From: an uncultured Kangiellaceae bacterium
Lineage (GTDB): Bacteria > Pseudomonadota > Gammaproteobacteria > Enterobacterales > Kangiellaceae
Length of the DNA: 64,000 bases
Direction of reading: 5' to 3'
Assembly (NCBI GenBank): GCA_905479925.1
Contig: CAJQOL010000066.1
Span: 1 to 64,000, forward strand
How positions within the stretch are numbered: the first letter of the stretch is position 1; each line of letters begins with the position of its first letter. The position numbers and the translations under genes are program-made. Shown one piece after another: positions 47,968-61,726 of this stretch. The notes below the pieces were generated by a model. That model saw only the letters and a program-made list of their open reading frames with translations, ran no database searches and was not told the DNA's origin.

Positions 47968-50583
47968 ATGGACCATTTGTCGGTACCACCAATCAACGTT
48001 AGTCAAATAAAGAAAATAGTTTTGCTAGCGTCCAGCATAGCTATCGCTCCGTTTGCAGCCGCGGACTCCAAGCCTACAAACAACTCGGAAAATCCGGATA
48101 GCTTGACGCGTTCAACGGCTTCCAGAATTAACAGTGAACGGTTGGTAGGATCGTCACCACTCCTAGTCATTACGCGAAAAGAAATAGAGCAAAGCGGTGA
48201 AAACAGTGCCGCTGACTTACTTCGACACATTACTTTAAATTCTGCAGGCTCTTTTAGACCTCAGTCAGGAAGCTCAATACAGAGCGTCGCTGAATTAGAT
48301 ATACACGGCATCGGGAGCCAATATACTTTAATCCTTATCGACGGTAGGCGAATGACTAAAAGCCCTTTCAATGGACGTTTTCACGACTTGACTTCCATTG
48401 CTCTGGCATCCATCGAAAGAATAGAAATATTACCAAAAGGCGCATCCTCTCTTTATGGTGGAGACGCTGTATCCGCCGTCGTTAATATCATTACTCGTAC
48501 TAGCATAACCGGCGTTGAAGTCTCTTTGCGAGCGGGAAACGTTAGCCTTCCGGGTGATGGCGGTGATAGAGATGCAGGTTCCATTTTATTTGGAACATCC
48601 GATGAAAAAAAGACGATTAGCGGTGGAGCATCGTGGAATAATCGCGATATCATTTTTCAACGTGATTATTACTATAATTCTCAAGGAGCGTCATTTTTTG
48701 GAAATAACTACTCCACACTGACTGATGGTTTTGACAATTTCGATTGGAGAACCATCCCTAACGGATCTAATAATGGTGCATGTGACTTTGATGGCAGTTC
48801 ATTTTTTACCCTTGGTTCACGCTGTGCATATGACTTTAATCAGGTTGCCGCTGACGAAGCATCGTCAAAAAATGAATCCATCTGGTTAAACGGCTCGGCA
48901 TCAATTAATCGAAATTGGAATATGTCGGGTAGCTTAAGCTATTCGAAATCCAGTTCTTTCGGTCGATACGCACCAACACCAGACTCGAGCTATTTTTCGA
49001 CACCTCTATCCGTTAATAGTCCCAATAATCCGTCTAATCCCTTAGGAAACGTCTATGATGCGTCTCGATTTCCTAGCGAATCGGTAGAAGTAAATTGGTG
49101 GCATCGCTTCGAATCGCTGGGCGATAGAAATTCAAACTTCGACAGCAAGTTGTTGGATGTTCGACTGTCACTGGAAGGCAAGATTGGAAATGCCGAACTT
49201 TACACGGGTATTCGTTTTAGCCAAAACAAGTCGAAAGACCGCGGGCAAAATCACTTACTTCGTTCGGCTGCTGCCTCATTGATTGAATCCGGGGCTTATG
49301 ATCTTTCTTCCCCCTTCAGCAACCCAGTTTCAGTTCTAGACCAAATGAGAACCAATTCAATTGTAACTGGTCTCGATGAATTTACAGAAATCTGGGGGGA
49401 TATTAACCTGGATTTATTTGAGATAAAGGGTCGACCGGTTAAGGCCGCGTTTGGATTCGAATATAGAGAAGAATCAATAGAAGATATCAAAGACCCATTC
49501 ACAGAAGCCGCTGACGTTGGAGGTTCGACTAGCAACACTAATGTTATCAGCCTTAACTATTTCAATAATATCAGCAAGACAGGCGATAGAAATCTAAGCG
49601 CCGTGCATTATGAAATCTTCGCGCCAATGAGTGAAAACATCGGCCTTAATCTAGCGGGAAGGTTCGATGACTACGAGGGGTTAGATTCACAATTTTCAAA
49701 TCAATTCGACGTCCATTGGAGCCCAACCGATTCTTTAGACTTCGGCCTATCCTTTAGTGAAGACTTTCAAGCTGCGCGTTTAGACCTTTTAAGCATTGAA
49801 GAAAGATCATTTGATAGTCCTATTGCAACTCCAAATTTAGTCGGTATCCCTGGACTCGTCAATAATATCTCCGTTCCTACCACAGTAACCAACAAGTTCT
49901 TAGAATCAGAAAAATCTGAATCGTTGAGCGGCAATGTTAATTACCAACTTTCAGAGTCAAACTCGATTCGTCTTAACTATCTCGATACTCAAATCAAAGA
50001 TAGAGCTCGCTTTTTTAATCCGAACCGACTATTCATTTTAAACAGCGTCGATGCTCAACGTCTAGCCAACCAAGGTTTAGGTATATTCGGTCCTGAAGGA
50101 GGAAGACCGACCAACATGGTGACGGGTTGGGGAAATCTAGGAACAGTTGATGTTGAGGTGCTTTCACTGGATGTGAATATCGAATGGAAAGCCGGCGATA
50201 TAGAGGTTCAACATCAATTTCGAGGTAATAAACTATTGAGTTACGAAGTCGACAAAATCGATATGCTCTCAAATAGTGCGGACCACCCTGCTTTGAGAAT
50301 GAATTTAAAGAATAGACTAGAATATAACAACTATTCCTTTGGGTGGAATATTAATATGATTGACGGTACGAGTGGAGATGACTCCTCCGCCACTTGGACC
50401 ACCCATGATTTGCAAGTCGCTTACAAAACATCTTGGAACGGAAAATTCACTCTAAGTTTGCAAAATGCTTTCGAGAAAAAGCCGCCTTTGGGGACGGGAA
50501 ATATTGGTGCACGAGAATACGATTTCGACTTATATAATGCCTATGGAAGAATTAGCTATTTAGAGTACACCCACAAGTTCTAG
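47968..50583 (+). CDS. TonB-dependent outer-membrane receptor
   Basis: An 871-residue receptor. A signal peptide ends near residue 33 (SSIAIAPFAAAD). The plug domain (about 65-185) has PLLVITRKEIEQSGENSAAD, LDIHGIGSQYTLILIDGRRM and the closing IEILPKGASSLYGGDAVSAV, with NIITR. The rest is a beta-barrel ending in Phe (YLEYTHKF). No CarboxypepD-like or FecA-type signalling extension is seen. The ligand is unknown. It is convergent with the peptidoglycan cluster, so a link to amino-sugar or muropeptide uptake is possible only as a guess. GGGAATATC precedes the ATG. Confidence 0.93.
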   Translation: MDHLSVPPINVSQIKKIVLLASSIAIAPFAAADSKPTNNSENPDSLTRSTASRINSERLVGSSPLLVITRKEIEQSGENSAADLLRHITLNSAGSFRPQSGSSIQSVAELDIHGIGSQYTLILIDGRRMTKSPFNGRFHDLTSIALASIERIEILPKGASSLYGGDAVSAVVNIITRTSITGVEVSLRAGNVSLPGDGGDRDAGSILFGTSDEKKTISGGASWNNRDIIFQRDYYYNSQGASFFGNNYSTLTDGFDNFDWRTIPNGSNNGACDFDGSSFFTLGSRCAYDFNQVAADEASSKNESIWLNGSASINRNWNMSGSLSYSKSSSFGRYAPTPDSSYFSTPLSVNSPNNPSNPLGNVYDASRFPSESVEVNWWHRFESLGDRNSNFDSKLLDVRLSLEGKIGNAELYTGIRFSQNKSKDRGQNHLLRSAAASLIESGAYDLSSPFSNPVSVLDQMRTNSIVTGLDEFTEIWGDINLDLFEIKGRPVKAAFGFEYREESIEDIKDPFTEAADVGGSTSNTNVISLNYFNNISKTGDRNLSAVHYEIFAPMSENIGLNLAGRFDDYEGLDSQFSNQFDVHWSPTDSLDFGLSFSEDFQAARLDLLSIEERSFDSPIATPNLVGIPGLVNNISVPTTVTNKFLESEKSESLSGNVNYQLSESNSIRLNYLDTQIKDRARFFNPNRLFILNSVDAQRLANQGLGIFGPEGGRPTNMVTGWGNLGTVDVEVLSLDVNIEWKAGDIEVQHQFRGNKLLSYEVDKIDMLSNSADHPALRMNLKNRLEYNNYSFGWNINMIDGTSGDDSSATWTTHDLQVAYKTSWNGKFTLSLQNAFEKKPPLGTGNIGAREYDFDLYNAYGRISYLEYTHKF

Positions 50584-50590
50584 ACCGATT

Positions 50591-50663
50591 ATAGAGCCAG
50601 TATGAGAACCATGTTGATTAAAAAGACTATCTTCAAATCAACTCTTTGATTGACTGGCTCTAT
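50591..50663. terminator. Nested inverted repeat at the convergent TonB-receptor / dehydrogenase ends
   Basis: ATAGAGCCAGT (50591-50601) pairs perfectly with ACTGGCTCTAT (50653-50663). Inside, GTTGATT (50613-50619) pairs with AATCAAC (50636-50642). The right outer arm lies within the 3' end of the dehydrogenase gene. A bidirectional terminator is the likeliest role, though the loop is large. Confidence 0.45.
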
Positions 50664-53589
50664 CTAATAAATAAATAAGTGATTGAAATGGAATGCCTGT
50701 GTGCCGTGATAACCCTAATTCGCAGGTTCGACTGTTGCTAACCCCCATGTGACAGTCCTCGGGGAGCTGAGAAGCAAGAGATTGCAGCGCGTGTCGATTG
50801 AGTTCGGGCTGTAAAAGCCCTTTCTCTCCAGCAAAACCGCAACAACTGATGTCCCTCGGCAGAATGAGATTCGATGTGCATAATTTAGCCACCTGAATAA
50901 CTCTCTCACTGATACCAGCCCGTTGGCTAGAGCAGGTAATGTGTAAAGCAACTGGTTCTTCCGAAGGTTGAATATCAATTTTATCCAGACAAAATTGAGC
51001 AATAAAATCAATGGAATCAAAAATTTGTACGTGACCTAATTGCAGATTATTAAATAGAGAACAGGGACTTGCATCGGTTATTACGGGAAGTAAACCACCA
51101 TTTGTTAGCCGCTTAAGCTCGCCTTTCAGTTCTTCATTTTTTGATTTAGCTTGCTTTTTGTTTCCTTGACTATCCCATGGCAATCCACAGCAAAGTGCCT
51201 CAAGATTGTTTGGAGTAATGACTTCAAAGCCGGCTTTTGTTAGAACCGAAGCGGTAGCTTGAAAAACACTTCGCTTATCTTTCGCTTTAGGATCCGATGC
51301 GAAAAGGCGTCCACTGCAGGCGGGAAAATAAACAACCTGCTTTCCCTTGTAAGCACTGACTCGTTCAGTGGCGCTTTTCATTTTTCTTTTGTGGTCAGTA
51401 CAGTTCTGTGTCGATTCAGCTCCAGGTAACGCCTCAAAATAAATGGGTATACGTTTCGCCGATATTCGATTGATCAACCTTGAAAACCACACGATCCGCT
51501 GAGTACCGAGCAAATTTGAACAATACCAGCCAAGGTTTAAAGCCCACCTTATAGGTCTACGATAAAGAGCGTAATACTTTGCACTTAACGAAGACCAAAA
51601 GCTTCCACCTAACGACTTCGATAAAGTTCGAAAGCGAAGCCCCTTTATGAACTCACCAGTATTTATATTCACTGGACAGCGTGTCTCGCACATTCCGGTA
51701 CCGGCACAGGTTTCAATACCTGAGTATTGAAAATCGCTTATTAGCGATTTGAGAAGCCGTTTTTCTTGTTTCGATTCATCCTGCTCCAGCTGGTTAATCA
51801 TTGGGGAAACCAGCTGAGTACGCAAACGCAAACGCTCTATTTCTCGAGCAACAGAAATTCTTTGTCGAGGTGAGTAACTCAACTGAGACGAAGGGCATAC
51901 GGGCTCACAGAAGCCGCACTCAATACATTGGTCAATTAAGCTATCAACTAAAGGCATCGGTTTCAAATTTTTGAGATGAATATCCGGATCATTGTTTATG
52001 ACTACACCGGGATTTAGGATATTGTTAGGGTCAAAAACCTGCTTGATTTGTATCATTATTTGATAGGCATCGCTGCCCCACTCTTTTTCTACAAATGGGG
52101 CCATATTTCTACCGGTACCGTGCTCCGCCTTTAATGAGCCATCCATTTTCTCTACCACTAATTCTACAACATGATTTAACAGCGATTGATATCGAGCAAC
52201 CTCTTGTTGCGTTTCAAAAGACTGACTAAACGCAAAGTGCAAGTTGCCGTCTTTTGCGTGCCCAAAGATTACCGCGTCATGATAATCAAAGCGTTCAAAA
52301 AGAGCTCTTAGTTCTTTAAGTGTTTTTGCAAGGTCGTTATGCTCGACCGCTATATCTTCGATAATGATGGTGGTTCCTGGGGCCCGGTTTGCCCCTATGC
52401 TTGGAAAAATCCCCTTTCTGATTCGCCACAGATTTGCTGCGACACTTGCATTGTTGGTTAACTCTATTTGGCTGACTAAATTCTCGGAATACTTCTTTAG
52501 TATTTTTTCTACGCATCGTTTTTTGTTAGCAAGTTCGCTATCGCAGTCTGCGTCAACTTCAAGAAGAAGGCCGAAGCTCTGCTTCGAAATAACTGACTGC
52601 ATGTCTTCCAACACAGGCTCTGAGCTAACACAGCTTAAAGAATACCCATCTAACATTTCAATCGCAGAAAGGTCAGCAGTAATCAGCTCATTAAGAGCCT
52701 TACATGCAATATCTACATTAGGAAACAGATAAAAGCCAGTCATGTTGTGCTGATTAATATCTAAAGTTTTATAAGTAATATCCGCAATAAACCCTAATGT
52801 TCCTTCCGAACCAATCATTAGATGTTTGATGATTTCGATTGGTTCTTCAAAATCAATCAGCGCGTTGATGCCATAACCGGTGGTATTTTTGAGCCGATAT
52901 TTGTGTTTTATTTTTTTCGATAACGCTAAATTGTTTTTTACGTCTGTTGCAAGTTGATTAATCTGAACAATCATCTTTTCGTTATTATTAATGAAATGAT
53001 TAACCGATTTTTTGCAAGCCGTATCTAAATTACTTCCGTTCGAAAAGATAATATTCATATCCTTCACGGTATGATAACTGTTGTTCGATACCCCGCAGCA
53101 CATTCCAGAGGAGTTATTAGCTGCAATTCCTGCGATTTTACAACTATCAATGGAGGCGGGATCCGGTCCGATTTTTTTAGCGAATTTTTTTAATGCTCGG
53201 TTAGCTCGAGCTGCAACAACTGATGGGGCTAGCTTAATCGAGCGGGCGCTATCTGATATCTCTATCTTATTCCAGTTGTTACTCAGTACCACCAGAACCG
53301 AGTCGGATATTGATTGACCTGATAAACTTGTACCAGCGGCTCTAAATGTAATCGCTACCTTGTATTTATAGGCTGCCTCTATAACCACTTTACTTTGTTG
53401 AAAGTCTTCAACTACTACCACCAACTGAGGAAGTAGGTGATAAAAGCTAGCATCGGTTGCATAAGCGACTCTATCGCTGTAACGACTTAACAAATTGGCA
53501 TGAGGAAGACGATTGCTGATTTCTTGATTAAAACGATGCAACGCCTCTGCGAGCTCACTTGACCCGGCATTATTTGCATGAAGTGTCAT
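50638..53589 (-). CDS. FAD-binding and Fe-S oxidoreductase, D-lactate-dehydrogenase-like (Dld-II/GlcD-GlpC fusion type)
   Basis: A 983-residue protein. The ATG at 53589 overlaps the stop of the upstream namZ-like gene (ATGA), which fixes the start. Order of parts: FAD-binding PCMH domain (about 30-260, TFRAAGTSLSGQSISDSVLV), FAD-oxidase C domain (about 265-530, GHAKDGNLHFAFSQS), two 4Fe-4S motifs (CIECGFCEPVCPS and CAGTGMCETRCPV), and CCG-type cysteine regions (LEALCCGLPW and DISCCGFAGEKG). This architecture occurs in quinone-linked D-lactate or D-2-hydroxyacid dehydrogenases. The context (MurQ releases D-lactate) favours D-lactate as substrate; this is inference. Confidence 0.85.
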   Translation of the reverse strand: MTLHANNAGSSELAEALHRFNQEISNRLPHANLLSRYSDRVAYATDASFYHLLPQLVVVVEDFQQSKVVIEAAYKYKVAITFRAAGTSLSGQSISDSVLVVLSNNWNKIEISDSARSIKLAPSVVAARANRALKKFAKKIGPDPASIDSCKIAGIAANNSSGMCCGVSNNSYHTVKDMNIIFSNGSNLDTACKKSVNHFINNNEKMIVQINQLATDVKNNLALSKKIKHKYRLKNTTGYGINALIDFEEPIEIIKHLMIGSEGTLGFIADITYKTLDINQHNMTGFYLFPNVDIACKALNELITADLSAIEMLDGYSLSCVSSEPVLEDMQSVISKQSFGLLLEVDADCDSELANKKRCVEKILKKYSENLVSQIELTNNASVAANLWRIRKGIFPSIGANRAPGTTIIIEDIAVEHNDLAKTLKELRALFERFDYHDAVIFGHAKDGNLHFAFSQSFETQQEVARYQSLLNHVVELVVEKMDGSLKAEHGTGRNMAPFVEKEWGSDAYQIMIQIKQVFDPNNILNPGVVINNDPDIHLKNLKPMPLVDSLIDQCIECGFCEPVCPSSQLSYSPRQRISVAREIERLRLRTQLVSPMINQLEQDESKQEKRLLKSLISDFQYSGIETCAGTGMCETRCPVNINTGEFIKGLRFRTLSKSLGGSFWSSLSAKYYALYRRPIRWALNLGWYCSNLLGTQRIVWFSRLINRISAKRIPIYFEALPGAESTQNCTDHKRKMKSATERVSAYKGKQVVYFPACSGRLFASDPKAKDKRSVFQATASVLTKAGFEVITPNNLEALCCGLPWDSQGNKKQAKSKNEELKGELKRLTNGGLLPVITDASPCSLFNNLQLGHVQIFDSIDFIAQFCLDKIDIQPSEEPVALHITCSSQRAGISERVIQVAKLCTSNLILPRDISCCGFAGEKGLLQPELNRHALQSLASQLPEDCHMGVSNSRTCELGLSRHTGIPFQSLIYLLDRASQSKS

Positions 53590-54989
53590 TTTTTTGGTCC
53601 AACAATATATTCCGCCCAAATAGGCTGCAGCAAATTAACCTTCTTAAGGCTAATATTGTTAGTACTTCGGGAATCTACAGCGCCTTGTCTACGAAGCTTA
53701 TTGTGATTATGACTAGCGGTATCAATAGGTTCATTAGTTGTATCGGAATAAAGCAAATAGGGTTTTCGACGCTCTTTAAAATCATTCAACTGTTGCTGCC
53801 AGCTAGCTTTGATTTCTTTTTCGTTGTTACCCGACAATATTTGCATCCTTAGTTTTGCGGTACCCGCTAATTGATCGAAGAATCGGGCTCTTGTAAAAAA
53901 TACCTTCCCTGCTCGTTGAAACTTATCATGCCAGGCTAATAACGGTGCTAGGGATAGTCCTGAAAACTGTGACTGACGTAGGTCTTGTCCTGTTACTTTT
54001 TGACCTAATAGTTTGGGGTTATCAGACACTCCTTTTATCGACCGAGGCGTAAACTCGAACTGGCCGATACTCACTTTATTGTGGCCAATGACTTGAAACG
54101 GAAAATCTGTTCCCCGTCCAATACTTACCGGTGTTGCTTCAAAAAACGCTAACGAAGGATACAATGAAACTGCGATATCGTTTGGAAGATTGGGGCTGGG
54201 TGGAATGGGCAATGAATAAGTTAACCATCGTTGGTAGTTTTTTACAGGAACAACCTTTAGATTTAGTTTGTGAGCTGAGCTCGCCTCATCTTCCGAAGTA
54301 TCTAACCACCCCTCTTTCATAATCATCAAAGCTAACTCAGCGACAGTCATACCATGCAATAGCGGAATTGAGTGCATGCCAACAAACGACCTAAACTCAG
54401 ATTCCAATACAGGGCCATCAACCCAGCCTCCGTTAGGGTTTGGACGGTCAAATGTAATCATTGGGATACTAGACTGCTTAGCGGATTTCATCGCGTAGTG
54501 CATGGAGCTAATATAAGTATAAAATCGAACGCCGACATCTTGAATATCAAATACTAGCAGGTCTACATTGCTAAGCTGGTCAGCAGTAGGCTGTTTATTT
54601 TTACCATACAAAGAATAAATAGGAATAGTTTTTAGTGAGTGGTTTGATTCTTTGAGGTCTTTTCTTTTATTTTTTGACTCGATATTCAGTTGACTTGAGT
54701 CGATTTTTTTACCTGCTGAATAGTTGCCTTTAAATCCATGCTCCGGCGAAAATATTGCAGTAACCAAAATATTGTTTTGCAACAAGTAGTCTACCAGATG
54801 CTCGCCATTAACTAGCGAGCTTTGATTAACAACCAGCCCGACCCGCTTGCCAACTAGCAAAGGCCGATATAATTCAATTTGCTCGGCGCCTACCTGAATT
54901 TTGTCATCGTTGGAAAATTGCATGTCGGCGGCATAAGCAGGAAAGAGCAGTGCTAAAAAACTCAAACAAAATAATAAGACTCGTTTCAT
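53586..54989 (-). CDS. namZ: NamZ-type exo-beta-N-acetylmuramidase (DUF1343)
   Basis: The DUF1343 family includes B. subtilis NamZ (YbbC), which removes MurNAc from the non-reducing end of peptidoglycan fragments. I placed the start at ATG 54989, where the signal peptide MKRVLLFCLSFLALLFPAYA begins (467 residues); ATG 55037 upstream is in frame and possible. Visible family motifs are VGLVVNQSSLV, FSPEHGFKGNYSAG, SLYGKNKQPTADQL, LLVFDIQDVGVRFYTYISSM and FDRPNPNGG. It is periplasmic or secreted. It lies just after murQ and overlaps the dehydrogenase gene by ATGA, so all three are one unit. Confidence 0.9.
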   Translation of the reverse strand: MKRVLLFCLSFLALLFPAYAADMQFSNDDKIQVGAEQIELYRPLLVGKRVGLVVNQSSLVNGEHLVDYLLQNNILVTAIFSPEHGFKGNYSAGKKIDSSQLNIESKNKRKDLKESNHSLKTIPIYSLYGKNKQPTADQLSNVDLLVFDIQDVGVRFYTYISSMHYAMKSAKQSSIPMITFDRPNPNGGWVDGPVLESEFRSFVGMHSIPLLHGMTVAELALMIMKEGWLDTSEDEASSAHKLNLKVVPVKNYQRWLTYSLPIPPSPNLPNDIAVSLYPSLAFFEATPVSIGRGTDFPFQVIGHNKVSIGQFEFTPRSIKGVSDNPKLLGQKVTGQDLRQSQFSGLSLAPLLAWHDKFQRAGKVFFTRARFFDQLAGTAKLRMQILSGNNEKEIKASWQQQLNDFKERRKPYLLYSDTTNEPIDTASHNHNKLRRQGAVDSRSTNNISLKKVNLLQPIWAEYIVGPKK

Positions 54990-55046
54990 TAAAGAATCAC
55001 TATCATTGTCCGTTTTTTCTATTTTGTATTCTCTCATATGGATAGA

Positions 55047-56018
55047 TTATTTCGGCGCTACAGTCGAATTATCTTTATTAATCCCGCCGGTAGACTCGCT
55101 TCTAGAGACATTCAAGGCATCCCTAAGAAAACCGTTGTTAACCGCAAGCATCGCTTTTGCTTGCTCAAACGTTGAAGAGGTTAAAAGCATTAGTATTGCT
55201 GATTTGCAATGATATCCACAGTCTTCTAGCGCCTGCTTCGCTTGCTCTGGATCACAGTCTGTGGCTTGTGTCACGATACGAATAGCTCTAGCGTGTAACT
55301 TTGCGTTGCTGGCATTAACGTCGACCATCAGGTTTTGATAACTTTTACCTGAACGAATCATACTGGCGGTAGAAAGCATATTTAGAATAAGTTTTTGTGC
55401 TGTACCTGCTTTCATACGAGTAGAACCGGTGAGCGCTTCTGCTCCAACGTCAGCGCAAATACCAACATCGGCTATCTGCGTAATAACACTTGCGGAGTTA
55501 CAGGCAATTGCAACGGTAAAGACTCCTATATCCTTGGCGAATTTTAACCCTCCTATAACATAAGGCGTTCGGCCACTCGCTGCTATTCCTACCAAAACAT
55601 CTGATTTTGACAAATTGATCGTTTTTAGTTCTCTCTCGGCTAGCGACAGATCATCCTCCGCACCTTCCACCGCTTTGTACATAGCAGACTCTCCACCGGC
55701 AATAAGTGCTTTGACCTGCTCTTGCCCAACCGAGAAGGTTGGCGGACATTCAACAGCATCAAGCACACCAAGCCTGCCGCTTGTACCAGCGCCAATATAG
55801 ATTAACCTGCCACCCTTTTTAAAAGCTGAAACGACGGCATCGACCGCTAAAGCAATATCAGGTATACAACGGGATACCACTTCTGGAACCGCCTGATCTA
55901 ATTGGTTAATTTTGGTTAGTACTTCTTTGGTCGATACTTGGTCAATATCCATCGTGTTAGGATGTCTCGATTCTGAAGACAACCTAGATATCTGTTCAAG
56001 AACAGCCTTTTCCGACAT
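55047..56018 (-). CDS. murQ: N-acetylmuramic acid 6-phosphate etherase MurQ
   Basis: MurQ cleaves the lactyl ether of MurNAc-6-phosphate to give GlcNAc-6-phosphate and D-lactate in the cytoplasm. The ATG at 56018 has AGGA seven bases upstream and gives 323 residues; the frame from 56066 adds 16 unlikely residues. The SIS domain carries IGAGTSGRLGVLDAVECPP (about 75-93), and ALTGSTRMKAGTAQKLILN is the second conserved region. The C-terminal UBA-like tail is also recognisable. First gene of the minus-strand murQ-namZ-dehydrogenase unit, divergent from the GH3 gene. Confidence 0.96.
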   Translation of the reverse strand: MSEKAVLEQISRLSSESRHPNTMDIDQVSTKEVLTKINQLDQAVPEVVSRCIPDIALAVDAVVSAFKKGGRLIYIGAGTSGRLGVLDAVECPPTFSVGQEQVKALIAGGESAMYKAVEGAEDDLSLAERELKTINLSKSDVLVGIAASGRTPYVIGGLKFAKDIGVFTVAIACNSASVITQIADVGICADVGAEALTGSTRMKAGTAQKLILNMLSTASMIRSGKSYQNLMVDVNASNAKLHARAIRIVTQATDCDPEQAKQALEDCGYHCKSAILMLLTSSTFEQAKAMLAVNNGFLRDALNVSRSESTGGINKDNSTVAPK

Positions 56019-56401
56019 ACTTTTTTCCTGCTGTTTAATTGTGGATTGAGATATGTTTTCAATCACTCAGCGGTTACCGTTAGTCTTGGTGACAGCTAGC
56101 TTTTGACGATAGTTAGCTTTAACGTTTGTTAGCGTCAGCAGTCGTTAACCATAACGATTGACATTATCATCAAACAAACCAATAAACTTAGTCTATGGGC
56201 ACTACCATATCACCCCAAAATGCCGATTTCTAGGATGCCGCCGCTTTTACTAACAAATAATTGACAACTGAGTAGGCGACTTAGCTATTAGTTATTGGTA
56301 CTATCAGCTAACCGATTTAATGACTTTTTATACATCGTAATTTGCACTTACATAACCCTAATGATGCTGTAGATAATAGAAAGCATTTAAAGCAAGCGAG
56401 A
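56019..56401. promoter_or_regulatory. 383-bp divergent control region of the peptidoglycan cluster
   Basis: On the plus strand TTGACA (56261-56266) and CTATTA (56285-56290), 18 bases apart, could be the GH3 promoter. Short GTTAGC/GTTAAC-like elements recur between about 56095 and 56150, as in ATAGTTAGC, TTTGTTAGC and TCGTTAACC, and might be sites for a shared regulator. No regulator gene such as murR is adjacent. Confidence 0.35.
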
Positions 56402-58372
56402 ATGATTAAGTTGAAAGCCAGCCAATTGATGATCACCGTATCCAAAATTAGCTTATTGATAATTATCGTGGCAGTTAGTTTAGGGTCGAAAGCTAAGTCT
56501 CCTAGTCTGGTAAAATCTCTAGAGTCAGAACAATTGGACAGCGTTTCTTCTGCCCTTTCGAACTTAACGCTAAGACAAAAAATTGCGCAGAAGCTAACCA
56601 TAGATTTGCGTTATTTTTGTGAACCGATCGAACAAATCAATTTACCTGCCAAATCAGTCGCTGTTTGCAACAATAAAATGACCTCCTTACCGGACGTTGT
56701 AAGAAGAATGATAGCCGAGACTTCGATAGGTGGTATTATCCTTTTTTCCGAAAATCTATCAAACATTAATCAAATTACGACGCTAAATCATCAACTTCAA
56801 CAAGCAGCGCAACAGTCACGGCCAGCCATTCCTCTTTTTATATCCGTCGACCAAGAAGGTGGCCGAGTTGCTCGTCTTCCAAGAAACCAATCCACCCCTT
56901 TCACCGGTAACATGTCAATTGGCGCAACCCATAGAAAACACAGAACTAAATATGCGCTGATGACCGGCGACATCATAGCAAAGGAGCTATTAGCGGTCGG
57001 TTTTAATACCGTTCACGCTCCCAATGTTGATGTAAATGTTAACCCCGATAATCCGGTGATTAATGTGCGCTCTTTTGGCGCGGATCCCAAAATAGTTGCT
57101 GAGTTAGGTAGCGCTCAGAGTTATGCGTTTGAGCGCCAAGGTCTCATTTCTACGCTAAAGCACTTTCCAGGGCATGGGGATACAAATGTTGACAGTCATA
57201 CCGGATTACCAGTAGTTAATCATGATAAAGCAACAATAGAGGCGAAAGACCTTTACCCGTTTAGAAAGATTATTGAAGACAACCCTCCGGGAATGATAAT
57301 GACCGCGCATATCCAGTTTCCAAAGTTAGATGCTTCAACCTTTATATCAAGTAGTGGTGTAGAAATGATTCGGCCTGCAACCATGTCTAGGAAGATTCTT
57401 ACCAGACAATTGAGACATAATATGGGTTATCAAGGAGTGATTATTACAGACTCTCTCAAGATGGCTGGAATTAGTGAGTATTTTAAACCGGTCGAAGCGG
57501 TTATAAATACCTTTAGTGCCGGCGCTGATATCGCATTGATGCCGCTTCGAATTAGCAATGCGCAGGATATTGAACAATTAAAAAAACTCATTCAAGACGT
57601 GGAAAAAGCAGTACTAGAGGATCGCTTGGCAATATCGGAAATAGATGAGTCTGTCGAACGAATATTAAAACTCAAAAATCGTTTTAAGCTATTCCATGCA
57701 TTTAACCACAGCTTACCAAAACAAATAGCAAGTGCGCGCCAGACTTTAGGTAATCAAACCCACAAAAAAGCTGAAGCAGAGTTAGCTAATCACGCTATCA
57801 CGCTAGTGAAAAACGACAATTCACTAATACCTTTAAAGTTAAACGAACAATCTAAAACCCTATTAGTCATGCCTGACAAACAAAAATGTCGCGCATTAAA
57901 ACAGTCCATGCAGTCTCTTGTTATTAATACTAATATCGTTTGTCAGCCGCTTTCCAACGCTAATAGACAAGAGCTAACACGAAAGATTGAGGCGGCGGAT
58001 GTAGTCATTTTCGCCAATATTTCGCCTTCGCAAAATGCTATGGAGATAGGGGGTGAAAAGGAATTAGCAAACTCAAAAAAACTGTTAAGTGGCATGCGAA
58101 AACAACCGGACCAAATAGAGCAATTACTTAAAGATAGCAAAATCCATAGTAAAAAAACCGTTTTTGTTAGTTTGCGTGCGCCCTATGATATTTCTCGCTT
58201 TTCTCCTTATGCCGATGCCGTTCTAGCCACTTACTCCTATAACGCTAATGTTATGAAATGGCCTCAGGGTTCCGGCGAAGTTGCTCAAATTGGAGGCCCA
58301 GCATATACCGCCTTAGCAGAAGTTATACTAGGAAAAAAAGAAGCTTTCGGCGACTTGCCAGTTGATTTATAA
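56402..58372 (+). CDS. nagZ: Extracytoplasmic GH3 beta-N-acetylglucosaminidase, NagZ-like
   Basis: A 656-residue glycoside hydrolase starting at ATG 56402 (a TTG at 56342 is in frame but unlikely). The N-terminus carries a hydrophobic export segment (MITVSKISLLIIIVAVSLGS), so unlike cytoplasmic E. coli NagZ it works outside the cytoplasm, like the B. subtilis two-domain enzyme (YbbD). The NagZ loop with the Asp/His acid-base pair is KHFPGHGDTNVDSH (about 253-266), and the nucleophile Asp is in GVIITDSLKMAG (about residue 350). SVDQEGGRVARL is also conserved. A C-terminal GH3-C-like domain follows. Removing GlcNAc would expose MurNAc ends for NamZ. Confidence 0.9.
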   Translation: MIKLKASQLMITVSKISLLIIIVAVSLGSKAKSPSLVKSLESEQLDSVSSALSNLTLRQKIAQKLTIDLRYFCEPIEQINLPAKSVAVCNNKMTSLPDVVRRMIAETSIGGIILFSENLSNINQITTLNHQLQQAAQQSRPAIPLFISVDQEGGRVARLPRNQSTPFTGNMSIGATHRKHRTKYALMTGDIIAKELLAVGFNTVHAPNVDVNVNPDNPVINVRSFGADPKIVAELGSAQSYAFERQGLISTLKHFPGHGDTNVDSHTGLPVVNHDKATIEAKDLYPFRKIIEDNPPGMIMTAHIQFPKLDASTFISSSGVEMIRPATMSRKILTRQLRHNMGYQGVIITDSLKMAGISEYFKPVEAVINTFSAGADIALMPLRISNAQDIEQLKKLIQDVEKAVLEDRLAISEIDESVERILKLKNRFKLFHAFNHSLPKQIASARQTLGNQTHKKAEAELANHAITLVKNDNSLIPLKLNEQSKTLLVMPDKQKCRALKQSMQSLVINTNIVCQPLSNANRQELTRKIEAADVVIFANISPSQNAMEIGGEKELANSKKLLSGMRKQPDQIEQLLKDSKIHSKKTVFVSLRAPYDISRFSPYADAVLATYSYNANVMKWPQGSGEVAQIGGPAYTALAEVILGKKEAFGDLPVDL

Positions 58373-59389: not shown

Positions 59390-61726
59390 TTATATTAAAT
59401 GTGCCGGTTTACCTAGATAGAACCCTTGCACTTGATTAACATTACATTTGGCGAGATTCTCAAGATCTTGGGTGGTTTCAATATGTGTAGCAATCACGTC
59501 GATTCCTTCTTGCTCTGCGGTTATCACTATCGCATCGATTAGGTTTCTTCGTGCGCCTTGCTCTTTTAGGTCTCGGGTTAAAGAGGTATCTAACTTTATG
59601 GCATCAACAGGCATTTGAGGCAAATTGAGTACACTTTGTGTATTCATACCAAAATGGCTAATAATAATACCGAAGCCAAGCTCACGTAATGTACTTAGGT
59701 GGTTCTTCCACTGCGGAAATTTAAACAGCTCTTCTTCGGCAATCTCAAAACGAAGTTTATCAGCGGATAATCCGGACTGCTTCCATATTTCGGCAATGTT
59801 AGTACGAAATCCTTGGTCGGACATAGCGTCAATAGACAAACATAAACTGTACCAAGCATTTGCACGGCTATGGTTATCTTTACAGTAAGAGGTCAATTTC
59901 TGCAGCACCAATCGATCAATATCCTTGATTACACCAAAACGTTTCGCGTCAGACATAAAAATCGCTGGCGAAATCAACGTTGTCCCCTCTACAAGTCGAA
60001 GTAGGCAATTACTTCCTTTCTGCTCCTCAATATTGTCCGTTGCATAAATAGGCTGTTGCAGCAAACTAAACTGCTGCTCTTTCATTGCACTACTTAGTCG
60101 CTTAAACCAATTTCCCTGTTGAATAGACTCGCTATCACTCTCGTCAAAAAATGCCCATTGATTCCTACCTTTTTGCTTCGCTTGTTGACAGGCAAGATCC
60201 GCTTGAATCAATAATTCACCAATAGAACCGGCTTTTGAATCCAATAAAGTTAGGCCAATAGAACCAGTTATACTGTGGACTTTTCCTTCCCAAAATAGCG
60301 AAGTATTTTCCAACAATCGACGATAGTTTTCTGCCAAGTCTTCAAATTGTTCGGGCATTAACTCGGTTAATAAAACAACAAACTCATCCCCTGAAAGCCG
60401 TCCAACAAAATCGGTTTCCCTGGCTCTTGATTTAAGACTTTCAGCAAGTGATATTAACAGTTGGTCGCCGGCCGCATGACCAAGCTCATCGTTTATCAAT
60501 TTAAACTTATCCAAATCGATGAATAACAAAAGCGCTGATTTTTCATTACGTTTATTTCGGTTAACTTCTCTGGTTAATATCTCTTCAAACGCATTTCTGT
60601 TTAATAAGCCTGTTAGCTGATCATGATTCAATTGCCATTGCCAGTTTTTCTCTAATCTCTCTTGCTCTGAAATATCCCTAAAAACAACCACGGAGCCTTG
60701 TACAGCTTCTTTACTTCCCAGTACTGTAACACTGCATTCTACTGGAAAGAGAGAACCGTCTGAGCGCTGAAACAAGGTACGCCAGTCTCTCAGCTCGTCA
60801 CCAAACAAATAGGCTTGCTGCAAAAAGCAATGTTCAAATGAAGTCATTTGACCTCGGTTATCGGTCGGATGAACACACTCATGGGGAAACCGTCCCATTA
60901 AGCCATCTAACGACCGTCCCAATAATTTAAGGGTAGCTGGGTTAACAAACTGAATTCTACCATCCTGCGCTACACCAAATACCCCTTCGGCAACGGAATA
61001 TAAAATACCGATAAGTCGAGATCTTTCCTTATCTACCTGGCGCTTTCTTTGAACACCTCTTAATAGCGCTCTCACGCGCGTTATAAATAGATCGGACGAT
61101 TCGTTCTTAAACATGCATTCTCGCGCTCCCGCTTTTAAGCACTCATCTACAACAGACTGTTTGTATTGCGCGGTTAGGATTGCACAAACAAGTTGGTAGG
61201 TATCATCATGAGCCTGTAATTTGGCGACTAACTGCGCACCTGTTTCACCTGGCATAAAATAGTCAATAATTGCCAAGCTGTAACGGTTATTCAATGCCAT
61301 ATCAAACCCTTCTTCGGCATCTTGCGCCACGTCAACCACAAATCCATCACGCTCTAATAATTTTTTGTATTGCATTCGAATCGTTTTTGAATCATCAACT
61401 AATAGCAGTTTGCCAATAGACTGATGTTGATCAGATTGTTTTAGGCGGTTTGTAAAAGAGCGAAGCCTCAAGGCTAGCTGTTCTCTAGCTTGATTCGATA
61501 AGGTGAAAACAGGGATTTCCGGGTATCTCAAGGAAAAACGAATGAGAAAGTCTTGATACTTTGACGTCTTAAAGTCAACAATGGCGCCACTAGGCTCAGG
61601 GTTGGTTTCAATCCAATGGCTCAGCTTTACAATAGAGGTAAACACCGTTACCTGTAACTGGTGGGATTCAAGTTGTTCTAGTAGGTCTTCGTAACCCTCA
61701 GACTTTTCTAGGAGCGCTATAATCAC
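59390..61726 (-). CDS. REC-PAS-GGDEF protein with degenerate EAL domain
   Basis: A 778-residue c-di-GMP regulator from GTG 61726. Residues 1-100 look like a decayed receiver. A receiver domain (105-222) has the pair in LLLVDDSKTIRM, D155 in AIIDYFMPG and K207. A PAS domain covers about 235-352. The GGDEF domain (362-525) has SGDEF at 445-449 and an I-site RETD at 436-439, so cyclase activity is likely. In the EAL region the signature Glu is gone (SNCLLRL) and the usual DDFGTGYSS is SHFGMNTQS, so phosphodiesterase activity is doubtful; QGFYLGKP remains. The EAL part may bind c-di-GMP or regulate the cyclase. Confidence 0.9.
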   Translation of the reverse strand: MIIALLEKSEGYEDLLEQLESHQLQVTVFTSIVKLSHWIETNPEPSGAIVDFKTSKYQDFLIRFSLRYPEIPVFTLSNQAREQLALRLRSFTNRLKQSDQHQSIGKLLLVDDSKTIRMQYKKLLERDGFVVDVAQDAEEGFDMALNNRYSLAIIDYFMPGETGAQLVAKLQAHDDTYQLVCAILTAQYKQSVVDECLKAGARECMFKNESSDLFITRVRALLRGVQRKRQVDKERSRLIGILYSVAEGVFGVAQDGRIQFVNPATLKLLGRSLDGLMGRFPHECVHPTDNRGQMTSFEHCFLQQAYLFGDELRDWRTLFQRSDGSLFPVECSVTVLGSKEAVQGSVVVFRDISEQERLEKNWQWQLNHDQLTGLLNRNAFEEILTREVNRNKRNEKSALLLFIDLDKFKLINDELGHAAGDQLLISLAESLKSRARETDFVGRLSGDEFVVLLTELMPEQFEDLAENYRRLLENTSLFWEGKVHSITGSIGLTLLDSKAGSIGELLIQADLACQQAKQKGRNQWAFFDESDSESIQQGNWFKRLSSAMKEQQFSLLQQPIYATDNIEEQKGSNCLLRLVEGTTLISPAIFMSDAKRFGVIKDIDRLVLQKLTSYCKDNHSRANAWYSLCLSIDAMSDQGFRTNIAEIWKQSGLSADKLRFEIAEEELFKFPQWKNHLSTLRELGFGIIISHFGMNTQSVLNLPQMPVDAIKLDTSLTRDLKEQGARRNLIDAIVITAEQEGIDVIATHIETTQDLENLAKCNVNQVQGFYLGKPAHLI

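Follow-up and report, generated by a model that had tools for sequence, protein, structure and literature searches.

Known systems for MurNAc salvage and D-lactate oxidation

Etherases of the MurQ family convert MurNAc 6-phosphate to GlcNAc 6-phosphate and D-lactate, and NamZ and NagZ trim peptidoglycan fragments. In Bacillus subtilis, the cluster murQ-murR-murP-amiE-nagZ-ybbC(namZ) unites MurQ, a two-domain secreted NagZ and NamZ (YbbC), as does the locus described here, with the PTS importer MurP, MurR and AmiE; the accessible part of its description contains no D-lactate dehydrogenase (PMC5061867). The present cluster possesses a dehydrogenase and lacks the PTS, regulator and amidase, whereas MurQ, two-domain NagZ and NamZ are common to both, bearing out the resemblance to the B. 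subtilis nagZ-namZ-murQ locus proposed in an earlier, sequence-only reading of this DNA. The murQ-murP-yfeW operon of Escherichia coli (with MurR) shares the D-lactate-releasing etherase, but employs PTS uptake and, as far as the accessible text goes, comprises neither NamZ, a secreted NagZ nor a linked lactate dehydrogenase (PMC5061867). The susCD-based murein PUL of an Urechidicola symbiont combines murQ, GH3, GH171, a sodium co-transporter, an epimerase, an amidase and nhaC in one locus, and its gene list, in the part accessible, names no lactate dehydrogenase (PMC10199937). Import, phosphorylation by a BadF-family MurNAc kinase and MurQ cleavage constitute the MurT-MurK-MurQ route of Tannerella forsythia, for which the accessible text mentions no linked Dld (PMC5790795).

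Dld-II-type D-lactate dehydrogenases are likewise encoded in the lldP-dld/lldEFG operons of Shewanella oneidensis, where dld is linked to a lactate permease and an L-lactate dehydrogenase, not to MurNAc genes, according to the accessible part of the report (PMC5432575). Corynebacterium glutamicum engineered for MurNAc use builds up lactate during growth on this sugar, and accelerating the oxidation of D-lactate by dld overexpression was suggested as a remedy (PMC6165865). A full-text literature search, mostly of papers accessible without subscription and in part only, retrieved no paper describing a D-lactate dehydrogenase gene next to those for MurQ or NamZ, in agreement with the earlier statement that such an arrangement is not a standard operon known from descriptions. 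Thus, MurNAc salvage clusters and Dld-II are already known, and there are slight indications that the coupling of Dld-II to MurQ/NamZ is new.

Organization of the gene cluster

The window (the whole stretch of DNA analysed, 64,000 nucleotides from an uncultured Kangiellaceae bacterium) quite probably harbours a peptidoglycan-sugar catabolic cluster, with a predicted murQ-namZ-dld operon including its own D-lactate dehydrogenase. The features are:

56342-58372, plus strand: GH3 nagZ-like gene, divergent from murQ (Pfam; alignment to B. subtilis YbbD/NagZ)
56067-56341, no strand: divergent intergenic region of 275 bp between murQ and nagZ
55047-56066, minus strand: murQ, MurNAc-6-phosphate etherase (NCBIfam; alignment to HI0754)
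53586-55037, minus strand: namZ, exo-β-N-acetylmuramidase family, formerly DUF1343 (Pfam; alignment to 4jja)
53586-53589, minus strand: ATGA shared by the stop codon of namZ and the likely start codon of dld (read in the sequence)
50638-53619, minus strand: dld, Dld-II-type FAD/2x[4Fe-4S]/CCG protein, predicted D-lactate dehydrogenase (Pfam, NCBIfam, tree)
47968-50583, plus strand: TonB-dependent receptor gene, convergent with dld and 54 bp off

Open reading frames with matching domains are present for all four proteins named in the sequence-only reading (NagZ-like GH3, NamZ, MurQ, D-lactate-dehydrogenase-like protein), and the ATGA overlap reported there is found on the minus strand at 53589-53586 (...aaaATGAcac...). 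All four frames (nagZ, murQ, namZ, dld) are uninterrupted and contain the conserved motifs. The spacing of murQ and namZ is 9 bp, and murQ-namZ-dld are probably cotranscribed, as judged from this arrangement. As nagZ lies on the opposite strand, the operon proper is murQ-namZ-dld. The overlap with namZ implies that dld starts at ATG 53589 (983 aa) and not at TTG 53619, while for murQ an ATG near 56018 is the probable start (the GTG-start ORF is longer by 16 aa). Neither a MurNAc kinase nor a transporter lies in the cluster, as previously noted, and tblastn of the 56067-56341 gap yielded no significant match to a symporter or kinase remnant. Promoter and terminator scans of the locus gave no more hits than shuffled sequence; base composition is uniform.

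A gene in the vicinity encodes a response regulator-PAS-GGDEF-EAL protein (window 59390-61726). Farther on, the contig also encodes a protein of 1,320 aa that contains a receiver-like region (L045:8867-12829). TonB receptors are also found near the clusters of L047, L068, L081 and L094, with similarity mostly confined to the plug region.

Predicted enzymes

The GH3 protein is a predicted two-domain β-N-acetylglucosaminidase of the B. subtilis NagZ/YbbD type: Pfam recognizes the N domain (4.7e-83) and, weakly, the C domain, both domains align with YbbD/NagZ (8e-103, query 111-649), and the catalytic-loop motifs LKHFPGHGDTNVDSH and ITDSLKM can be read in the sequence. Its score for the cytosolic single-domain NagZ (NCBIfam equivalog PRK05337) stays below the cut-off (186.6 vs 207). 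NamZ, encoded by a single-copy gene in the genome, exceeds the Pfam gathering scores with NamZ_N (3.1e-68, 229.6 bits) and NamZ_C (9.9e-27, 95 bits), aligns with solved NamZ-like structures (4jja, 4.7e-90) and would act as exo-muramidase releasing MurNAc; we take GH171 to be its CAZy family. MurQ passes the NCBIfam equivalog TIGR00274 (401.3 vs cut-off 302) and aligns over its full length with HI0754 (2e-101). Judged by eye, NamZ carries a Sec-type signal-like N terminus (MKRVLLFCLSFLALLFPAYA-AD) and the GH3 protein a hydrophobic signal-like stretch; no such N terminus is seen in MurQ or Dld.

The dehydrogenase displays the Pfam domains FAD_binding_4, FAD-oxidase_C, Fer4 and CCG, i.e., the Dld-II fusion of FAD_binding_4 and FAD-oxidase_C with 4Fe-4S and CCG modules (~950 aa). 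Its metal-site and FeS motifs are intact (GHAKDGNLH, AEHGTG, CIECGFCEPVC, CAGTGMCETRCP and two CCG motifs). Full-length homologues share 35-49 % identity.

Recurrence of the namZ-dld adjacency and phylogeny of Dld

In an order-wide survey of 395 genomes, the positions of Dld-II and MurQ were compared, the latter among the matches listed; on this basis, both lie within 8 kb in at least 8 genomes, all of family f7. The 299 genomes of this family comprise 103 with Dld-II, 147 with NamZ and 93 with both. NamZ and Dld-II are at most 10 kb apart in 39 of these 93 genomes (16 genera), where chance proximity within 10 kb would be expected in ~0.5 % of genomes; in 33/93, namZ has the same orientation as dld and lies no more than 1.6 kb upstream of it, and the gap is below 200 bp in 11/93. 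Since the genomes are related, binomial significance is overstated, and the counts of genera and arrangements are the better guide. The objection that the adjacency might be unique to one strain is thereby refuted.

Several arrangements recur. SSS (sodium-solute symporter), MurK, MurQ, NamZ and Dld are encoded in a row in G540/L113 and G588/L109; G209, G333 and G467 show this order too, but interrupted by an RpiR gene that is inverted and separates NamZ from Dld; SSS-MurQ-NamZ-Dld is found in G137, G246 and G453, and MurQ-NamZ-Dld alone, the reduced set of the window, in G613/L124. The closest Dlds (G644, G584, G655) are encoded divergently from nagZ. G540 additionally carries a second murQ-namZ pair with no adjoining Dld or symporter (L128:6796-8957). 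A genome-contig scan with NamZ retrieved one locus only, on a Calditrichota contig. In case of family f12 (G047, G090), proximity of murQ and Dld looks incidental, because other genes separate the two and, within the stretch retrieved, it is not seen in two sister genomes; these loci were set aside.

Dld might alternatively be a general respiratory dehydrogenase for D-lactate (or 2-hydroxyacids) that resides beside namZ incidentally and uses lactate formed in methylglyoxal detoxification or fermentation or taken up from the environment. Many other families indeed encode homologues in lctP-lldEFG lactate operons or away from peptidoglycan genes. NamZ and Dld are apart or on different contigs in 54/93 f7 genomes, and within the window's own genus, G001, G003, G004 and G005 encode nagZ, SSS, a BadF-family kinase, murQ, namZ and RpiR together with no Dld-II; both observations count against a linked function. 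(In G005, murQ and namZ are each split into two reading frames, L048:8493-10514, reflecting sequencing error or decay.) Against an incidental neighbourhood stand the 4-bp overlap of namZ and dld in the window and the adjacency in many genera and several arrangements, which moreover follows the partition of the Dld tree. In a tree of 38 rows, Dlds from other families, whether unlinked or part of lactate operons, form one clade (SH-aLRT 100) with zero linked rows, i.e., apart from the Dlds linked to MurNAc clusters, and linkage state changes 4 times, compared with 7 to 17 times (mean 12.7) in 300 label shuffles. In a 28-row tree, the window's Dld falls inside a clade (98/99) of linked Dlds only; its row is long, so the exact sister is unsure. 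Since recurrence, operon order and phylogeny agree on a functional link between MurNAc salvage and Dld, a general dehydrogenase placed here by chance appears rather improbable.

NagZ, MurQ and NamZ of the window obtain higher scores against family f7 than against most, or even all, copies from their own genus. Monophyly of the window and its genus was rejected by the AU test for NagZ (p 0.003) but not for NamZ (p 0.51); for MurQ, the test was spoiled by a mis-framed row (G176) and by G039, which nests within the window's genus. Horizontal transfer from family f7 is therefore not claimed.

Supply of MurNAc 6-phosphate

Most relatives encode SSS and usually MurK between or next to these cluster genes, beside murQ; in sequence, their kinase matches a MurNAc/GlcNAc kinase of solved structure (8zo3). 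Free MurNAc can thus be imported and phosphorylated there, as expected from the T. forsythia route, whereas the window's genome contains no recognizable MurK. In this genome (94.8 % complete), the search for MurK gave no BadF-family match, and in case of AmgK, none of the five neighbourhoods inspected had an APH-family match adjoining murU. A close homologue of the relatives' SSS symporter was likewise not found in this genome, the only similar protein (C178) being 23 % identical. AnmK is present at its usual place, adjoining an M23-like peptidase gene and tyrS (C8:24532-25683). The proposed check for these functions elsewhere in the genome therefore succeeded for AnmK but not for MurK, AmgK or a close SSS. 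Because AnmK is present while no MurNAc kinase or close symporter homologue was found, MurQ is probably fed by recycling of anhydro-MurNAc via AnmK.

That neither MurK nor a close SSS, which most relatives encode among these genes, was found in the genome, together with same-genus G002, which keeps murQ with neither symporter nor kinase beside it, would also agree with a decaying remnant of a complete MurNAc operon, in which importer and kinase were lost and NamZ and Dld no longer cooperate. Yet the four frames are intact with conserved motifs, G613 has the same reduced murQ-namZ-dld set and MurNAc 6-phosphate would still be obtainable through AnmK, rendering decay unlikely.

Substrate of the dehydrogenase

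In several loci from other families of the order, homologues of the same architecture adjoin lldEFG, a lactate permease gene or both. The same layout is known from SO_1518-1522 of S. oneidensis, which requires dld to grow on D-lactate (PMC5432575); this comparison concerns operon layout. Since same-architecture homologues sit in lactate operons, we infer D-lactate as the probable substrate. The window's Dld occupies a long branch and is at most 48 % identical to any relative, hence its specificity could have shifted. Action on another hydroxyacid (glycolate, D-2-hydroxyglutarate) or a wall-derived lactyl compound might be read from the near-equal GlcD and YdiJ model scores (~176 bits each) and from glycolate oxidase being among the best solved relatives, but is very unlikely, since the scores lie far under the cut-offs for GlcD (NCBIfam TIGR00387, 176.4 vs 567.9) and for the D-2-hydroxyglutarate dehydrogenase YdiJ (NF049975, 176.1 vs 1350), the genome encodes a separate GlcD-like protein (contig C100, its other related match), and relatives possess separate YdiJ-like proteins (~1,020 aa) at 24-27 % identity.

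Proposed pathway

According to family membership and signal-like N termini, GH3 NagZ would take off GlcNAc and NamZ the non-reducing-end MurNAc in the periplasm. In this organism, MurNAc 6-phosphate would most likely arise from anhydro-MurNAc via AnmK, and MurQ would cleave it in the cytoplasm to GlcNAc 6-phosphate and D-lactate. The Dld-II enzyme is then predicted to oxidize D-lactate to pyruvate with FAD, the electrons passing via two 4Fe-4S clusters and the CCG domains probably to the quinone pool/respiratory chain, while GlcNAc 6-phosphate and pyruvate would enter central metabolism. Energy recovery from the D-lactate of MurQ, as the sequence-only reading had suggested, gains support from recurrence, operon order and phylogeny. 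Its route of GlcNAc removal, MurNAc release, ether cleavage and lactate oxidation stands with respect to the enzymes, but for the step leading from NamZ (periplasmic MurNAc) to MurQ (cytoplasmic MurNAc 6-phosphate), the symporter and kinase of the relatives were not found in this genome.

One may further speculate, with considerable reserve, that the distinct Dld-II group is a dedicated part of peptidoglycan catabolism, built into MurNAc operons, through which the wall sugar's lactyl ether is itself burned, and that the operon works here without MurK, AmgK and the usual symporter.

Wider peptidoglycan clusters in relatives

Recurring cluster neighbours encode an amidase, NlpC/P60, L-Ala-D/L-Glu epimerase, alanine racemase, class IV aminotransferase, AnmK and NagB; D-glutamate cyclase and oxoprolinase-type genes (named by reading of the sequence) also recur around the clusters. 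The peptide part thus appears to be covered, making the broader locus a candidate for complete peptidoglycan use. The loci L106-L108, L077, L078 and L082 group nagZ and Dld with genes for a D-glutamate cyclase, oxoprolinase-type proteins and a class IV aminotransferase, which suggests that stem-peptide D-glutamate may be catabolised by these same loci.

A MurK-type kinase and MurQ are apparently fused (~615 aa) in four genera (L077:6790-8637, L078:5641-7494, L082:4611-6491, L120:13831-15678), and the product is predicted to act as both MurNAc kinase and etherase; in L077 and L078, NCBIfam models confirm each of the two halves. A gene for an NhaC-like transporter is also recurrent in the clusters, next to murQ/alr or at other positions (L126:10700-12118, L049, L078, L082-L084, L095, L117). 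Its product, with the family name given by reading of the sequence, is a candidate importer of wall fragments, paralleling nhaC in the accessible gene list of the Urechidicola murein PUL (PMC10199937). A heparan-alpha-glucosaminide N-acetyltransferase-like membrane protein gene adjoins nagZ or Dld in L106:11342-12532, L077, L089, L091, L108, L111, L117, L123 and L125.

Implications

The locus supplies a precise, testable function for a Dld-II group that is named by no curated equivalog model. If true, operation of the operon without MurK, AmgK and symporter would imply either rewiring onto AnmK or the existence of an importer or kinase for MurNAc that has so far escaped recognition. Complete peptidoglycan use would bear on the turnover of dead bacterial biomass. 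The D-lactate formed by MurQ is usually regarded as a by-product; a conserved operon with its own Dld suggests that many Gram-negative bacteria may eat the whole MurNAc molecule.
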